From Acidobacteriota bacterium (lineage in GTDB: Bacteria; Acidobacteriota; Thermoanaerobaculia; Thermoanaerobaculales; Sulfomarinibacteraceae), in assembly GCA_013152895.1 (NCBI GenBank), contig JAADFN010000089.1, forward strand, positions 1 to 37,624: a stretch of DNA of 37,624 bases, in the 5' to 3' direction. The position numbers were made by a program, and so were the translations under genes. The notes below the pieces were generated by a model. That model made no database searches, was not told the DNA's origin, and saw only the letters and a program-made list of their open reading frames with translations. Shown piece by piece: positions 9,259 through 17,353 of the stretch. The stretch's first letter is position 1; the number at the start of each line of letters is the position of its first letter.

Positions 9259-11268
9259 TCATGCTTCGAGAGACTCTGCAACCAGCTCGATGACATCGTG
9301 CGTGCGCGCATCTTCGTCCCCCAGCTCTTGCTGAGCGTTTGCGATCATCACGTTGCAGAAGGGACAGGCTACGCACGCCTCGTCGGTGCCCGTTTCCTTG
9401 AGCTGGGAGTACCGCACCTGGTTGATCCGCTCACCCAGCTTTTCTTCGAGCCACATCCGGCCGCCGCCCGCGCCGCAACACATCGATTTCTCCCGGTGGA
9501 GCTCCGGCTCCCGCACGCTCACGCCTGGAATGGCCGTCAGCAAGAACCTCGGCGCGTCGAATTCGGCGTTCGTCCGGCCGAGGTAACACGGATCGTGGTA
9601 GGCGACATCGATGTTCACCGGCTTCGTGAGCCTAACCCGGCCCGATCGCACCAGCTCCGCGACGAGCTGCGTTCCATGAACGACCTCGTAATTGCCTCCG
9701 AAATCGGGATACTCGTGGGCCAGCGTGTTGAAGCAGTGTGGACAGTTCGTTACGATTTTCTTGACTCCATACCCGTTCATCGTTTCCACGTTCTGTTGTG
9801 TGAGAACCTGGAAGAGGTATTCATTCCCAAGCCGGCGCGCCGAATCCCCCGAGCACGCCTCCTCCGCTCCGAGAATGGCAAACGTGATGCCCGCAGCCTT
9901 GAGGATCTTGACCAGCGCTTGGGAGACCTTCTTTCCTGCATCGTCGTAGCTGCCCGCGCAACCGACCCAGAACAGGTACTCGAAGTCCCCGCCGGCTTCC
10001 GCCGCCGTTGGAACGTCGAGGCCCTTGGCCCAGTCCGCACGCGTTTCAGCGGCAAGCTGCCATGGATTACCGTTGACCTCCATGCCGCGGAAGGCGATCT
10101 GAGCCTCTTCGGGAAACTCGGCTTTCTCGAGCACGAGGTTCTGCCGCATCTCGACGATCTTGTCGACATAGGAGATACCCAGCGGGCACGCCTCCTCGCA
10201 CCACCGGCACGTCGTGCACGCCCACACGATGTCCGGGTCGACGACCGCGGGAACCAGCTCCTTGTCCGAGATGCGTCCCGCGTCTCCAGGATCTCCCAAG
10301 AGCACGGATTGCTCGTGATAGAGCTCGTTGCGTACCGCCTTCGTCAACAGGACCGGTTGCAACGGTTTGTGCGTCAACGTCGTTGGGCAGAACTCCCGGC
10401 ACCTGCCGCATTCAGTACACGTGTAGAGATCGAGCATCTGCTTCCAGTTGAGATCCGTCACCGTGGCGATCCCGAACCGCGTATCCTCGTCGATGTTCTC
10501 GAGATCCATCGAGGGGAGCTTCCCAGGGGCATCGAGGTTGGCGAAAAAGACGTTGAACAGCGCCGTGTAGACGTGGAAGTGTTTTCCATACGGCAGCTCG
10601 TTGGCGAAGACGAAGAGCGTCGTGAGGTGGATCCACCAGAGCGTGGCGTACCACGTGTGAAGCGCGCTGTGGGAAAGACCCGTAAATAGGCCGCTGATCA
10701 AGGTGCTGACGGGGAGCCATGCTTCAGACATTCCAGCCGCGATCCGGGCGCCTTCCGAGGTGAGATCCGTGACCATCAGGATGCCAATCAGAACAATGAC
10801 GAGCCACGCACCAAATGATTGAATAATCCTGGACGGCTTCTGGATGGTACGCCGGTACGTGGCGAATCCAAGGCCGATCAGCACCAGGACCTCAAAAATA
10901 TCCTTCGTAAAGAGATAGATATGCCCGACAGGAGTATTGAGAAACGGGAGCTCCCATCCGCCCGCGAGGCCCTCGATCACCATCGAAGTCGTTCTCAGGC
11001 TGAGAACGAGGAACCCGTAGAAGATCATCACGTGGTACATCCCGGCGTAGGGGTCCTTGAACATCTTCTTCTGGCCGACGGCGTAGATCATCATGTGCTT
11101 GAACCGCTCGCCCAGCCGGTCGAACCGGTTGACTGGACGGGCCAGCTTGAGCAGTTGATACCGCCGGCTCAGGGAGTACACCACTCCCCCGGTTCCGAGA
11201 ATCGTCAGCAGCCAAAACCAGACATACCCCGGAATTCCAAGAAAGCTCCCCGCAGTGGCAAATAGCAT
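9259..11268 (-). CDS. Membrane-bound HdrD-like Fe-S oxidoreductase, probable ETF:quinone oxidoreductase
   Basis: About 669 aa. The N-terminal third holds about five membrane helices like the gamma subunit of respiratory nitrate reductase (cytochrome b type). Next come two 4Fe-4S motifs, CTECGRCREFCP (284-295) and CTTCRWCEEACP (351-362), and two CCG domains of heterodisulfide-reductase type: EEACSGD with NCPHC, where the first CCG reads CSG, and CCGAGGGRMW with ACPFC. Proteins of this layout next to ETF or acyl-CoA dehydrogenase genes have been proposed as ETF:menaquinone oxidoreductases in fatty-acid oxidisers such as Syntrophomonas; that role is inferred here from architecture and from the FadR-like operator. 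ATG 11268 is chosen for the GAGGAGGAG 2 nt upstream; the frame is open back to 11346 without a ribosome site. Confidence 0.82.
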   Translation of the reverse strand: MLFATAGSFLGIPGYVWFWLLTILGTGGVVYSLSRRYQLLKLARPVNRFDRLGERFKHMMIYAVGQKKMFKDPYAGMYHVMIFYGFLVLSLRTTSMVIEGLAGGWELPFLNTPVGHIYLFTKDIFEVLVLIGLGFATYRRTIQKPSRIIQSFGAWLVIVLIGILMVTDLTSEGARIAAGMSEAWLPVSTLISGLFTGLSHSALHTWYATLWWIHLTTLFVFANELPYGKHFHVYTALFNVFFANLDAPGKLPSMDLENIDEDTRFGIATVTDLNWKQMLDLYTCTECGRCREFCPTTLTHKPLQPVLLTKAVRNELYHEQSVLLGDPGDAGRISDKELVPAVVDPDIVWACTTCRWCEEACPLGISYVDKIVEMRQNLVLEKAEFPEEAQIAFRGMEVNGNPWQLAAETRADWAKGLDVPTAAEAGGDFEYLFWVGCAGSYDDAGKKVSQALVKILKAAGITFAILGAEEACSGDSARRLGNEYLFQVLTQQNVETMNGYGVKKIVTNCPHCFNTLAHEYPDFGGNYEVVHGTQLVAELVRSGRVRLTKPVNIDVAYHDPCYLGRTNAEFDAPRFLLTAIPGVSVREPELHREKSMCCGAGGGRMWLEEKLGERINQVRYSQLKETGTDEACVACPFCNVMIANAQQELGDEDARTHDVIELVAESLEA

Positions 11269-11321
11269 GGCTCCTCCTCGCTCTCTCATCCAGAAAAGAC
11301 GTGGGACTGCATCACGGGGGG

Positions 11322-11327
11322 AGTATA
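11322..11327 (-). promoter_or_regulatory. -10 element of the Fe-S oxidoreductase promoter
   Basis: TATACT on the minus strand, about 54 nt before the ATG at 11268. No good -35 box is visible (ATGAAT at 17-nt spacing matches three of six). The palindrome at 11330-11359 fills the space between -10 and -35, so a bound repressor would block polymerase. Confidence 0.5.
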
Positions 11328-11329
11328 CC

Positions 11330-11359
11330 AGACACTGAATGATCATTCATTCAGTGTCT
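11330..11359. promoter_or_regulatory. FadR/YsiA-like operator palindrome
   Basis: A perfect inverted repeat with 13-bp arms: AGACACTGAATGA (11330-11342), 4-bp centre TCAT, then TCATTCAGTGTCT (11347-11359). Its core TGAATGA-N4-TCATTCA has the half-sites and spacing of the box bound by the TetR-family fatty-acid repressor FadR (YsiA) of Bacillus. It also spans the last codons and the stop of mutY. It is not followed by a U-run, so it is a poor terminator. Confidence 0.6.
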
Positions 11360-12422
11360 CCCGCCGAGTGTTCCATTCGATCCAGCCGGGTTTGCACGCC
11401 TCCGACAGCTTCGCCAACAGCGAAGATGTAGGGACCCCGGGATCCTCGGACCGGACGAGCCGCCATCCGTCGGGAACCGCCCGCTCATCGAGGAGCTCGT
11501 AGAGAAATGGCATGATCCGGATCCTCCGGTAGGTCACGGAGTGCCGGACTTCCCTCCCGGCGCCGGCAGGCTTCACCATGACCGGTAGCAGCGCCCTTGC
11601 GCGAGCCTCACCGTCATCCTGGCCGGCGCCGGAAGCCCCGATCCAGGGAGGCAACCACAACCCCCGGAGGATCGGACCCGAGATGACCTTGGTGACGAGG
11701 ATACGGCCGTCGTCCGCGAAGACGCACGCAGCGACCCACCGCTCGGACTCGGGCGCCCGCGCCGTCCGGGGCCCCGGATAGCGATCCGGCGCACCGGAAC
11801 CCCACGCGAGACAACCCTCCTTGAAGGGACATACTCCGCACACCGGCCCCGCGGGGGTGCACACGGTCGCTCCGAGCTCCATCAGCGCCTCGTTGATCGT
11901 ACCCGGCGGGGCCTCTTCCATGAGCCCGAGGATCCACTCCGTGAACCGCGCGTTCGCTTGCCGCCCCCGGGCATCGCCTTCGAACCCGAGGAACCGCGCC
12001 GCCACTCGCCGCACGTTGCCATCCAACGTCACCGCACGACGTCCAAACGCGAACGAAGCGATCGCCGCCGCGGTGTACGGTCCTATTCCGGGCAGTTGCT
12101 GCAACGCCTCGACCGAGTCTGGAATCGGCGCTGCCCGCTCCACGAGGCTCCGCGCCAGCCCGAGCAACAGCCGCGCCCGCCGGTAGTACCCCAGCCCGGA
12201 CCACTGTTCCAAGACCTGCTCCTCGCTCGCTCCGGCGAGATCCCCTATCGTCGGAAACCGCGACATGAACTCGTCGAACTTTGGCACCACTCGCCCAACC
12301 TGCGTCTGCTGCAACATCAGCTCGCTGACCAGCACCGCGTACGGATCCCGCGGCTCGCGACGCCACGGAAGATCACGAGCGTGATCGGCGAACCATCGTG
12401 CAAGGGCGATCCCTTCCCGCAT
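11343..12422 (-). CDS. mutY: A/G-specific adenine DNA glycosylase
   Basis: 359 aa, normal for MutY, which removes adenine mispaired with 8-oxoguanine or G. Seen: SELMLQQTQV with the general-acid Glu34, the helix-hairpin-helix LPGIGPYTAAAI (110-121), the catalytic Asp134 in LDGNVRR, and the iron-sulfur cysteines C188-X6-C195-X2-C198-X5-C204. The C-terminal Nudix-like domain that reads 8-oxoG follows (WVAACVFADDGRILV onward). No ribosome site precedes the ATG at 12422; CATAAT on the minus strand (12435-12430) ends 7 nt before it, so the mRNA may be leaderless. The 3' end overlaps the operator of the next gene. It borders the integron island on its other side. Confidence 0.93.
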   Translation of the reverse strand: MREGIALARWFADHARDLPWRREPRDPYAVLVSELMLQQTQVGRVVPKFDEFMSRFPTIGDLAGASEEQVLEQWSGLGYYRRARLLLGLARSLVERAAPIPDSVEALQQLPGIGPYTAAAIASFAFGRRAVTLDGNVRRVAARFLGFEGDARGRQANARFTEWILGLMEEAPPGTINEALMELGATVCTPAGPVCGVCPFKEGCLAWGSGAPDRYPGPRTARAPESERWVAACVFADDGRILVTKVISGPILRGLWLPPWIGASGAGQDDGEARARALLPVMVKPAGAGREVRHSVTYRRIRIMPFLYELLDERAVPDGWRLVRSEDPGVPTSSLLAKLSEACKPGWIEWNTRRETLNE

Positions 12423-14929: not shown

Positions 14930-17353
14930 TCAGGACCCTGCCGTCTCGTCCTCGGCGTGCTCACCGCCGGTGCCTTTTCCCGCCTTGCGCAGCAGCCGGG
15001 CCATCTCTTCGAGACGTGCCTGGCACCGGCCGTATACGCTCCCGGGCGTCCACCGGTCGCCATCCTGGTGGCCAGCGGGAACGCCGGTCAGCAGCTCGAT
15101 CCCTTCTTCCACGCTCGTGACGGACCACACGTGAAACCGCCCCTGTTCAACGGCATCGACGACCGGCCCGTTGAGCTGAAGATCCGGGACGTTCGCCACC
15201 GGAATCATGACACCCTGCGTTCCGGTCAACCCACGCGCCCGGCAGATTTCGAAGAACCCTTCGATCTTCTCGTTGACGCCGCCGATCGGTTGAATGCCGC
15301 CGTACTGGTCCACCGAGCCGGTCACCGCGACGTCCTGGCGCAGAGGAAGGCCGGAGAGCGCCGAGAGGATGGCATAGATCTCGGTCGAGGAGGCCGAGTC
15401 TCCATCGACTCCGCCGTACGACTGCTCGAACGTGATCGAGCACGCCATGCTCAACGGGACCCGGCGTGCGAAGGTTCCCCGTAAGAAGCCGGTGAGGATC
15501 GCGACGCCCTTGTCGTACGTCGGCCCCGACAGCCCTGCGCTCCGCTCGACGTTGATGATGCCCTCCTTGCCAAGGCCAATCCGCGCCGTGATCCTCGAAG
15601 GGCTCCCAAAACGATGATGGCCAAGATCGTAGACGGCCAGGCCGTTGACCTGACCGACACATGTCCCCTCCGTTGCGATCTTGACAATCCCTTGCGCGAT
15701 CCATTCGTGGGTCTTCTCCTCACTCATCCCGTGCCGGCGGCGGCGCGCTTCCACGGCGCCATGGATGTGAGCGCCGGAGACGAGTGCAGCAGCATCCTGC
15801 GACGCCCGGAACGACGCCTCCCGGTACACATCGGCGAGATCGGAGAACCGGCTCGAAAAATGCCGCCTGAAACGTCCCTGGCGAACGGCCACCTCGAGGA
15901 TCGCAGCCATGCCGCTCCGGTCCAGGGCAACGAGATCCTCTTCCTCGCCCACCTTGCGCAATACGGAGAGTATGTTCTTCGCGGCGTCCGGCTCCGGTGG
16001 CATCAACGAATCGAAATCCGCAAGAACTTTGAAGACTTTCGAGAAATCGGCATCCAGCCGGTAGAGCAGGTCATAAACCCTCCGGTCTCCGATGACGACG
16101 ACCTTGACATCGAGGGGGACCGGCGACGGCTTGAGGGTGGTGGCTCCGAGGAGGACCGATTCGGGCGACTGGATCTGGACACGCCGGTACTTCAAGGCGC
16201 GTTTGAGACTCGGCCAGACACGTCCTTCGGCCAGCATGTCGTCGGCGTTGAGGACGAGGAACCCGCCGTTCGCCCTCAACAGCGACCCCGCCCGGATATT
16301 GAGGAAGCTGACGGCGTTCTCTTTCTGTGCTGTCAAGCCACGTTCGATCGTGCCGAACAGATTGGTGTACGTCGGCTCCGTCTCGATCTCGACGGGGCGT
16401 CCCTTCGTCTCGCTATTGTCCACGACAACATTGACTCTCCAGCGAACGAACGGATCTTCACCTCCTCCATCCGTGGTGTCGTCGGGCATCAACAGATCGA
16501 TGTTCTCTTCGAGATCCGTCCGTACCCCGTCCAGGTACTCTCCCGCTCCATCATCGTTGACGGTGTCCTTCGCGCGTTGGACGACGACATCGAGCAGAGG
16601 ACAGATCACCTCTTTTCGAACCTCCTTGGCACGCTCCTGCATTTTCTCGCGAAGTCCGGTGACCTCGGCAAAGACCTCCTCCATCTCCGACATCAGCTCG
16701 TTATACCTCGAAACGAGCTCCCGGGCTTCCTCTCGAGTCACATCGCCCGCCCGAACCCGGTCTCCCAGCTTCTCGATCGGTACGGTTTCATCGTTGACTT
16801 TCGCGTAGATATCCGGACGCGTCACCGCACCGAGTTGAATCTGGACCAGCTCGAATCCAGAACCCTTCACCTTCTTCTCGAAACTCGAGATTCGATCCTC
16901 TTCCCGCTTCTTGAGATCCCCAAGCGCCTGGTCGACCCGCTTGCGAAACGCCTGGTCGTTGATGATCTCCCCCAAGCTCTCGGCCAGCTCCGCGATCATG
17001 GCGTCCATCGCACCACGAAGCCTGTTCCCGGCAGAAGCCTTGAGCGAAAGGACCTGCGGCCGCCCGGGGCTCCGGAAGTTGTAGACGTAACAGATGTCAT
17101 TTGGAGGAGCGCTATCACCCTTTTGGCTGTCAAGGAAGCGCTTGATCGTCGTCAACCGGCCCGTTCCGGACAGACCGGTCACAAAAATGTTGTACCCGAC
17201 CCCACCGATGGCAAGCCCGAAATCGATCGCCTCCACGGCACGATCCTGGCCAACGATTGACCGTGCCGGTTCGATTTCGTCGAGCGTCTTCCACGTCAGC
17301 CAGCCTTCGGGACATCTCCAGGCAAGCTCTGCAACATCAAGCTCGTGTGCCAT
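14930..17353 (-). CDS. Lon-like ATP-dependent protease (AAA_32/S16 family)
   Basis: 807 aa. An N-terminal ATPase region contains the P-loop-like GLSGTGR (60-66), where Arg stands for the usual Lys-Thr, as often seen in this branch; a long helical region rich in charged residues lies at about 130-280. The C-terminal S16 protease domain has the catalytic Ser653 in DGDSASST and Lys696 in GGVNEKIEGF. These proteins are relatives of YcbZ/LonH rather than of classical LonA: no LonA N-terminal substrate domain is present. The expected role is cytosolic protein quality control; the substrates are unknown. GGAG lies 9 nt before the ATG at 17353. It is separated from the upstream KtrB gene by about 120 bp on the same strand. 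Confidence 0.87.
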   Translation of the reverse strand: MAHELDVAELAWRCPEGWLTWKTLDEIEPARSIVGQDRAVEAIDFGLAIGGVGYNIFVTGLSGTGRLTTIKRFLDSQKGDSAPPNDICYVYNFRSPGRPQVLSLKASAGNRLRGAMDAMIAELAESLGEIINDQAFRKRVDQALGDLKKREEDRISSFEKKVKGSGFELVQIQLGAVTRPDIYAKVNDETVPIEKLGDRVRAGDVTREEARELVSRYNELMSEMEEVFAEVTGLREKMQERAKEVRKEVICPLLDVVVQRAKDTVNDDGAGEYLDGVRTDLEENIDLLMPDDTTDGGGEDPFVRWRVNVVVDNSETKGRPVEIETEPTYTNLFGTIERGLTAQKENAVSFLNIRAGSLLRANGGFLVLNADDMLAEGRVWPSLKRALKYRRVQIQSPESVLLGATTLKPSPVPLDVKVVVIGDRRVYDLLYRLDADFSKVFKVLADFDSLMPPEPDAAKNILSVLRKVGEEEDLVALDRSGMAAILEVAVRQGRFRRHFSSRFSDLADVYREASFRASQDAAALVSGAHIHGAVEARRRRHGMSEEKTHEWIAQGIVKIATEGTCVGQVNGLAVYDLGHHRFGSPSRITARIGLGKEGIINVERSAGLSGPTYDKGVAILTGFLRGTFARRVPLSMACSITFEQSYGGVDGDSASSTEIYAILSALSGLPLRQDVAVTGSVDQYGGIQPIGGVNEKIEGFFEICRARGLTGTQGVMIPVANVPDLQLNGPVVDAVEQGRFHVWSVTSVEEGIELLTGVPAGHQDGDRWTPGSVYGRCQARLEEMARLLRKAGKGTGGEHAEDETAGS

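Follow-up and report, generated by a model that had tools for sequence, protein, structure and literature searches.

In the window analysed here (the whole stretch of 37,624 nucleotides), an inverted repeat lies between mutY and a gene for an HdrD-like protein, both on the minus strand, which raises the question of whether it is an operator and, if so, which regulator would read it and with which other genes. The repeat consists of two 13-bp arms, AGACACTGAATGA and TCATTCAGTGTCT (11330-11342 and 11347-11359), which are 100% complementary and stand 4 nt apart; no second perfect pair with 13-nt arms occurs in the window. The initial annotation had described a perfect palindrome of 30 bp, which holds for the arms but not for the centre, TCAT, which is not self-complementary. 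It had further placed a core TGAATGA-N4-TCATTCA upstream of the TATACT of the HdrD-like gene and partly in the last codons of mutY. Indeed, the core matches exactly with the minus-strand TATACT close behind it, and the mutY codons CTG AAT GAA TGA are themselves operator sequence, the stop (11345-11343) falling inside the core. By chance, about 1e-4 exact 14-base matches are expected in 37.6 kb, and 0.84 matches per window if up to three mismatches are admitted. In a relative of the same genus the extended arms outside the core are not conserved (AGGGAC...GTTTCT); hence, we take the core rather than the 30-bp hairpin to be the functional unit.

The fit to known operators is close though not complete. 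The Bacillus FadR consensus, WTGAATGA...TCATTCAW, has an A or T beside both half-sites. The window site carries C and G at these positions and lacks both W flanks, and the other boxes that we collected have one or two of them. The ends of the spacer at fadF are purines on both sides (3/3), and R..Y is found in 55/57 of the other boxes.

The genes and the promoter around the palindrome

Table 1. Features of the mutY-fadF/etfD region of the window, and related sites elsewhere in the genome
Feature	Position	Strand	Basis or remark
fadF/etfD, predicted membrane Fe-S ETF:menaquinone oxidoreductase, 669 aa	9259..11268	-	start ATG at 11268 behind GAGGAGG; CCG and Fer4 domains
Extended -10, TATACT with TGG before it	11323..11328	-	upstream of fadF in relatives
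Full inverted repeat, 13-bp arms	11330..11359	.	arm comparison in the window
Predicted FadR-type operator core TGAATGA-N4-TCATTCA, 18-bp register	11336..11353	-	exact match
14-bp palindrome TGAATGATCATTCA, TGAATG-N2-CATTCA register, common to the etfBA promoter	11336..11349	-	family-wide TGAAYGRYCRTTCA matches
mutY, adenine glycosylase; last residues LNE* written in the operator	11343..12422	-	TIGR01084, E 4e-73, below the curated cut-off
Exact core, contig C9			30 bp before the start of a TetR gene (fadR); the gene of a long-chain acyl-CoA ligase (fadD) comes next
Exact core, contig C17			46 bp before thiolase (fadA) and FadJ/FadB-like multifunctional enzyme (fadB)
Exact core, contig C59			between fadN-type 3-hydroxyacyl-CoA dehydrogenase with thiolase (fadN-fadA) and a divergent Chalcone_3 gene
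Exact core, contig C114			53 bp before long acyl-CoA dehydrogenase (fadE)
fadR site			TGAATGAGTGTTCATTCA
etfB site			TGAATGGTCATTCA

The HdrD-like protein, hereafter FadF/EtfD, aligns over nearly its full length with Mycobacterium smegmatis EtfD (PDB 9ojn; E 3e-118), and the alignment matches the CCG cysteines, both heme histidines and all eight cysteines of the cubane clusters (positions from PMC13083937). It thereby combines the Fer4 and CCG domains, the cluster cysteines and the two membrane heme histidines of the EtfD type, and the earlier suggestion of a putative ETF:quinone oxidoreductase gains from this homology to a solved EtfD the support that makes an EtfD-type ETF:menaquinone oxidoreductase the predicted product. 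As the genome has a single etfBA pair, and the iron-sulphur domain of the classical ETF-QO (Fer4_ETF_QO) was not found in it, FadF/EtfD is likely the outlet for ETF electrons. Upstream, the mutY of another locus (L044) has the same ending as that of the window. At the mutY stop, an overlapping ATG (ATGA, 11346) would lengthen fadF by 26 codons in frame (11268-11346). Stop codons interrupt this extension in the same-genus genome; it is, hence, probably fortuitous, and we rejected a translational coupling of this ATG to mutY. Elsewhere in the window (14930-17353) a Lon-like protease is encoded (TIGR00764, E 1.5e-30, below the cut-off).

In the family, 16 fadF genes have an intact start, and TATACT precedes every one of them. 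At fadF in the window, the core lies over the -35 region, and a minus-strand extended -10, TGGTATACT, follows it closely downstream. At most of the sites of fadR, fadE and fadN the core instead overlaps the -10 and the start region, and a -35 resembling TTGACA, TTGCAA or TTGCCA is found about 22-23 bp ahead of it. Both positions would be compatible with repression by blocking the polymerase.

A candidate FadR regulon in the same genome

A search of the genome (3.0 Mb in 221 contigs, 97% complete) recovered five exact cores and none of a reversed control pattern. The motif is thus not unique, and the four copies outside the window all adjoin fad genes, including that of the acyl-CoA ligase, which is where the initial annotation had expected them in tying the site to fatty-acid degradation. 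A weaker core precedes etfBA (C1:9288). The predicted targets are, therefore, beta-oxidation, acyl-CoA ligase and ETF-linked genes, and one operator stands at the gene of the regulator itself. Other inexact matches were set aside as probably due to chance: a core with one mismatch (C102:57831) inside a polysaccharide-type gene, and cores with two mismatches on C76, C144 and C182 without fad context. Two further observations concern neighbouring genes. In several genera, the Chalcone_3 (chalcone-isomerase-like) gene (L013:17-595, on C59, and several of L128-L179) and fadN diverge from one promoter with a FadR box, an arrangement that suggests that these proteins have a part in the use of fatty acids. 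A different palindrome, TAAGTGA-ATGG-TCACTTA (L024:1418-1435, on C7), stands before another TetR gene, which precedes a TolC-like gene, and is probably the operator of that adjoining TetR regulator itself.

A TetR-family fatty-acid regulator had also been predicted elsewhere in the genome, and the C9 gene answers to this description. Neither of the two outcomes that the initial annotation had named as refuting its reading was thus observed, and its main claim is supported. Among the six TetR genes of the genome it alone codes for the YsiA-like C-terminal domain TetR_C_4 (92.5 bits, cut-off 21; E 3e-26), along with TetR_N (53.4 bits, cut-off 24), both above the curated thresholds. Its closest solved relative over the full length is Bacillus subtilis FadR (PDB 1vi0/3whb; E 1.6e-37), B. 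halodurans FadR (5gpa, 5gp9) is also among the nearest, and the next TetR after the FadR structures follows at E 1.9e-14; the recognition helix is nearly the same as in B. subtilis FadR (VADGTLYLYF here, VADGTIYLYF there). The NCBIfam FadR equivalog NF053878 is the only family reported for it, at 171.4 bits (E 1.7e-50), below the 200-bit cut-off; hence, we call it FadR-type rather than a member of the equivalog.

Given that the same site precedes the repressor's own gene and other genes of fatty-acid breakdown, the palindrome very probably serves a FadR repressor of the Bacillus type as its docking site. We put at roughly 0.78 the probability that it is the operator of the FadR/YsiA-type TetR repressor encoded on C9 and controls fadF/etfD. 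The sequences themselves show the site and its conservation in relatives, the set of co-regulated genes and the homology of the regulator; from these we infer binding, repression and acyl-CoA as the ligand. When long-chain acyl-CoA is lacking, the repressor would sit on the core over the -35 region and block transcription of fadF/etfD; upon accumulation of acyl-CoA it would leave the site, and FadF/EtfD would then be made together with the products of fadD, fadE, fadN-fadA and fadA-fadB, the ETF:menaquinone oxidoreductase presumably passing the electrons of beta-oxidation to the quinone pool.

Conservation, the two operator registers and rival readings

The core recurs across the family: exact copies, one to five per genome, occur in 19 of its 20 genomes, and nearly all of those fetched lie before fadR-fadD, fadN, fadE or fadA-fadB. 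It stands 26-53 bp before the start of the FadR orthologue in 18/18 family members. In the sister family an exact core was seen in one of 17 genomes, and its FadR orthologues (45-50% identity) have degenerate cores in the same place, mostly with 1-3 mismatches. Across 297 Acidobacteriota genomes the core is present in 63 of the 72 with a strong TetR_C_4 match and in 5 of the 225 others (Fisher p 3e-48, the genomes being treated as independent despite their relatedness), and within 700 bp of the TetR_C_4 gene in 21 of the 27 phylum genomes listed. Before fadF, the core is exact in G000, G007 (same genus) and G014, and has 1-2 mismatches in L248, L249, L253 and L257, always beside TATACT; the element is wholly lost in L250, L251, L252 and L260. 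L028, L029 (Candidatus Sulfomarinibacter), L250 and L252 lack the operator upstream of fadF, with AATTCC/AAATCCG simple repeats in or near its place, but retain TATACT; in these, fadF has apparently dropped out of the FadR regulon. Separately, in L149, L152 and L157 (G008-G010) exact cores occur at a distance of about 360-390 bp from the gene of a large ATPase-like protein, in surroundings where we recognised no fad gene.

In most relatives the elements before fadF and etfBA both fit a 14-bp palindrome, TGAATG-N2-CATTCA, better than the 18-bp register. At the window site the two registers overlap with an offset of four bases: TGAATGA-ATGA-TCATTCA in the one and TGAATGATCATTCA in the other. Of the 14-mer the genome has two exact copies (TGAAYGRYCRTTCA), at fadF and etfBA. 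FadRSa of Sulfolobus acidocaldarius occupies its operators as a single dimer or as a pair of dimers, according to the operator, and the key G/C pairs are 11 positions apart (PMC6449355). The 18-mer has two such pairs, G2-C13 and G6-C17, and the 14-mer only G2-C13, from which we infer one FadR dimer on the 14-mer and two on the 18-mer. The spacers of the 18-mers are biased to outer R..Y in 11/13 distinct family spacers and to inner YR in 12/21 distinct spacers elsewhere in the phylum, the other two comparisons being weaker (p 0.08 and 0.06). Such a bias is what two interleaved sites would require, and a single regulator that reads two forms of operator is, therefore, the explanation that we favour.

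The rival that bears most directly on this is a second regulator that owns the 14-mer and controls only etfBA and fadF, the 18-bp match in this clade having come from a four-base duplication, so that fadF would be under this other regulator or under both. It would account for the near-restriction of exact TGAAYGRYCRTTCA to etfB and fadF in the 20 family genomes, for the 4-bp difference in spacing from the FadR boxes and for similar elements before fadF outside the family. However, none of the genome's six TetR genes, searched for an autoregulated owner, has an exact 14-mer upstream; the fadF of G014 (L247) keeps the 18-mer and has lost the 14-mer; a second etfB element, after its -10, is 18-mer-like in G014 and G012 (L226/L227); and the FadR boxes themselves hold two interleaved 14-mer-like halves. 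We regard a second regulator as unlikely, if the most serious of the alternatives. Much less credible is that the repeat acts as an RNA hairpin, be it a mutY terminator or an mRNA structure. The strand does fold well (z -3.2) at the end of mutY, but no T-run follows the repeat, its outer arms diverge even in the nearest relative, the core persists before fadF in L027, L026 and L036, for which a search upstream recovered no mutY, and the same core precedes many fad genes; we rejected the hairpin or terminator reading. That the palindrome is a functionless product of chance would be suggested only by the imperfect fit of its spacer and flanks, and we give this next to no credence: far fewer than one exact core is expected per genome, the five observed are all beside beta-oxidation genes, and the footprint before fadF is conserved in relatives, including other genera.

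Palindromes of 14 bp before fadF homologues were also seen outside the family, TGAACGGCCGTTCA-like in other Acidobacteriota (L030/L031/L033) and TGAACGACCATTCA in Myxococcota-type records (L066/L103). At somewhat under even odds, we suggest that etfBA and fadF form a regulatory class of their own in Acidobacteriota, and perhaps Myxococcota, read through TGAAYG-N2-CRTTCA, which resembles half of a FadR box. This could reflect either one FadR dimer whose threshold differs from that of the 18-bp boxes with their two dimers, so that induction is graded, or a separate ETF regulator; the two forms might interconvert by a 4-bp insertion, as the window suggests.

Comparison with known systems

In the literature searched we found no FadR regulon in Acidobacteriota and nothing useful on the operator string. 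Mainly new are the occurrence in Acidobacteriota and the presence of two operator spacings. The predicted operator would tie an HdrD-like EtfD/FadF oxidoreductase by regulation to fatty-acid degradation in this phylum; it is searchable and would predict fad genes across Acidobacteriota; and the natural series of 14-bp and 18-bp operators makes the stoichiometry of FadR binding directly testable.

The closest parallel is the FadR (YsiA) regulon of B. subtilis, where FadR represses fadF, fadNAE and lcfA-fadR-fadB-etfBA (PMC4525379). Common to both are a TetR-type regulator with TetR_C_4 and an operator at its own gene. The core and its spacing also agree with the B. subtilis consensus. The predicted targets likewise correspond, namely fadF, fadN-fadA, a fadE-type acyl-CoA dehydrogenase, an acyl-CoA ligase and probably etfBA (PMC4525379). 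Unlike in B. subtilis, the setting here is a high G+C member of the Acidobacteriota, fadR has fadD behind it and is not part of an lcfA-fadR-fadB-etfBA cluster, fadF follows mutY, fadN has a promoter in common with the Chalcone_3 gene, and there are two operator spacings, the 18-mer at fad genes and the 14-mer at etfBA/fadF. M. smegmatis EtfD, an ETF:menaquinone oxidoreductase characterised by cryo-EM (PDB 9ojn, PMC13083937), is a chain of 1042 aa, whereas the window protein has 669 aa and a predicted FadR-type operator. The cluster D1 cysteines are reportedly missing from B. subtilis FadF (PMC13083937), and in this respect the window FadF/EtfD is nearer to EtfD. FadRSa, too, is a TetR-type repressor released by acyl-CoA, with one- or two-dimer binding (PMC6449355), of which release and stoichiometry would be the parallels proposed here; it differs in being archaeal, and its ligand-binding residues are reported to have no homology to their counterparts in bacterial FadR (PMC6449355). 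Finally, the FadR of Thermus thermophilus is likewise of the TetR type, but its operator, TTRNACYNRGTNYAA, is unlike that of the window (PMC5597230).
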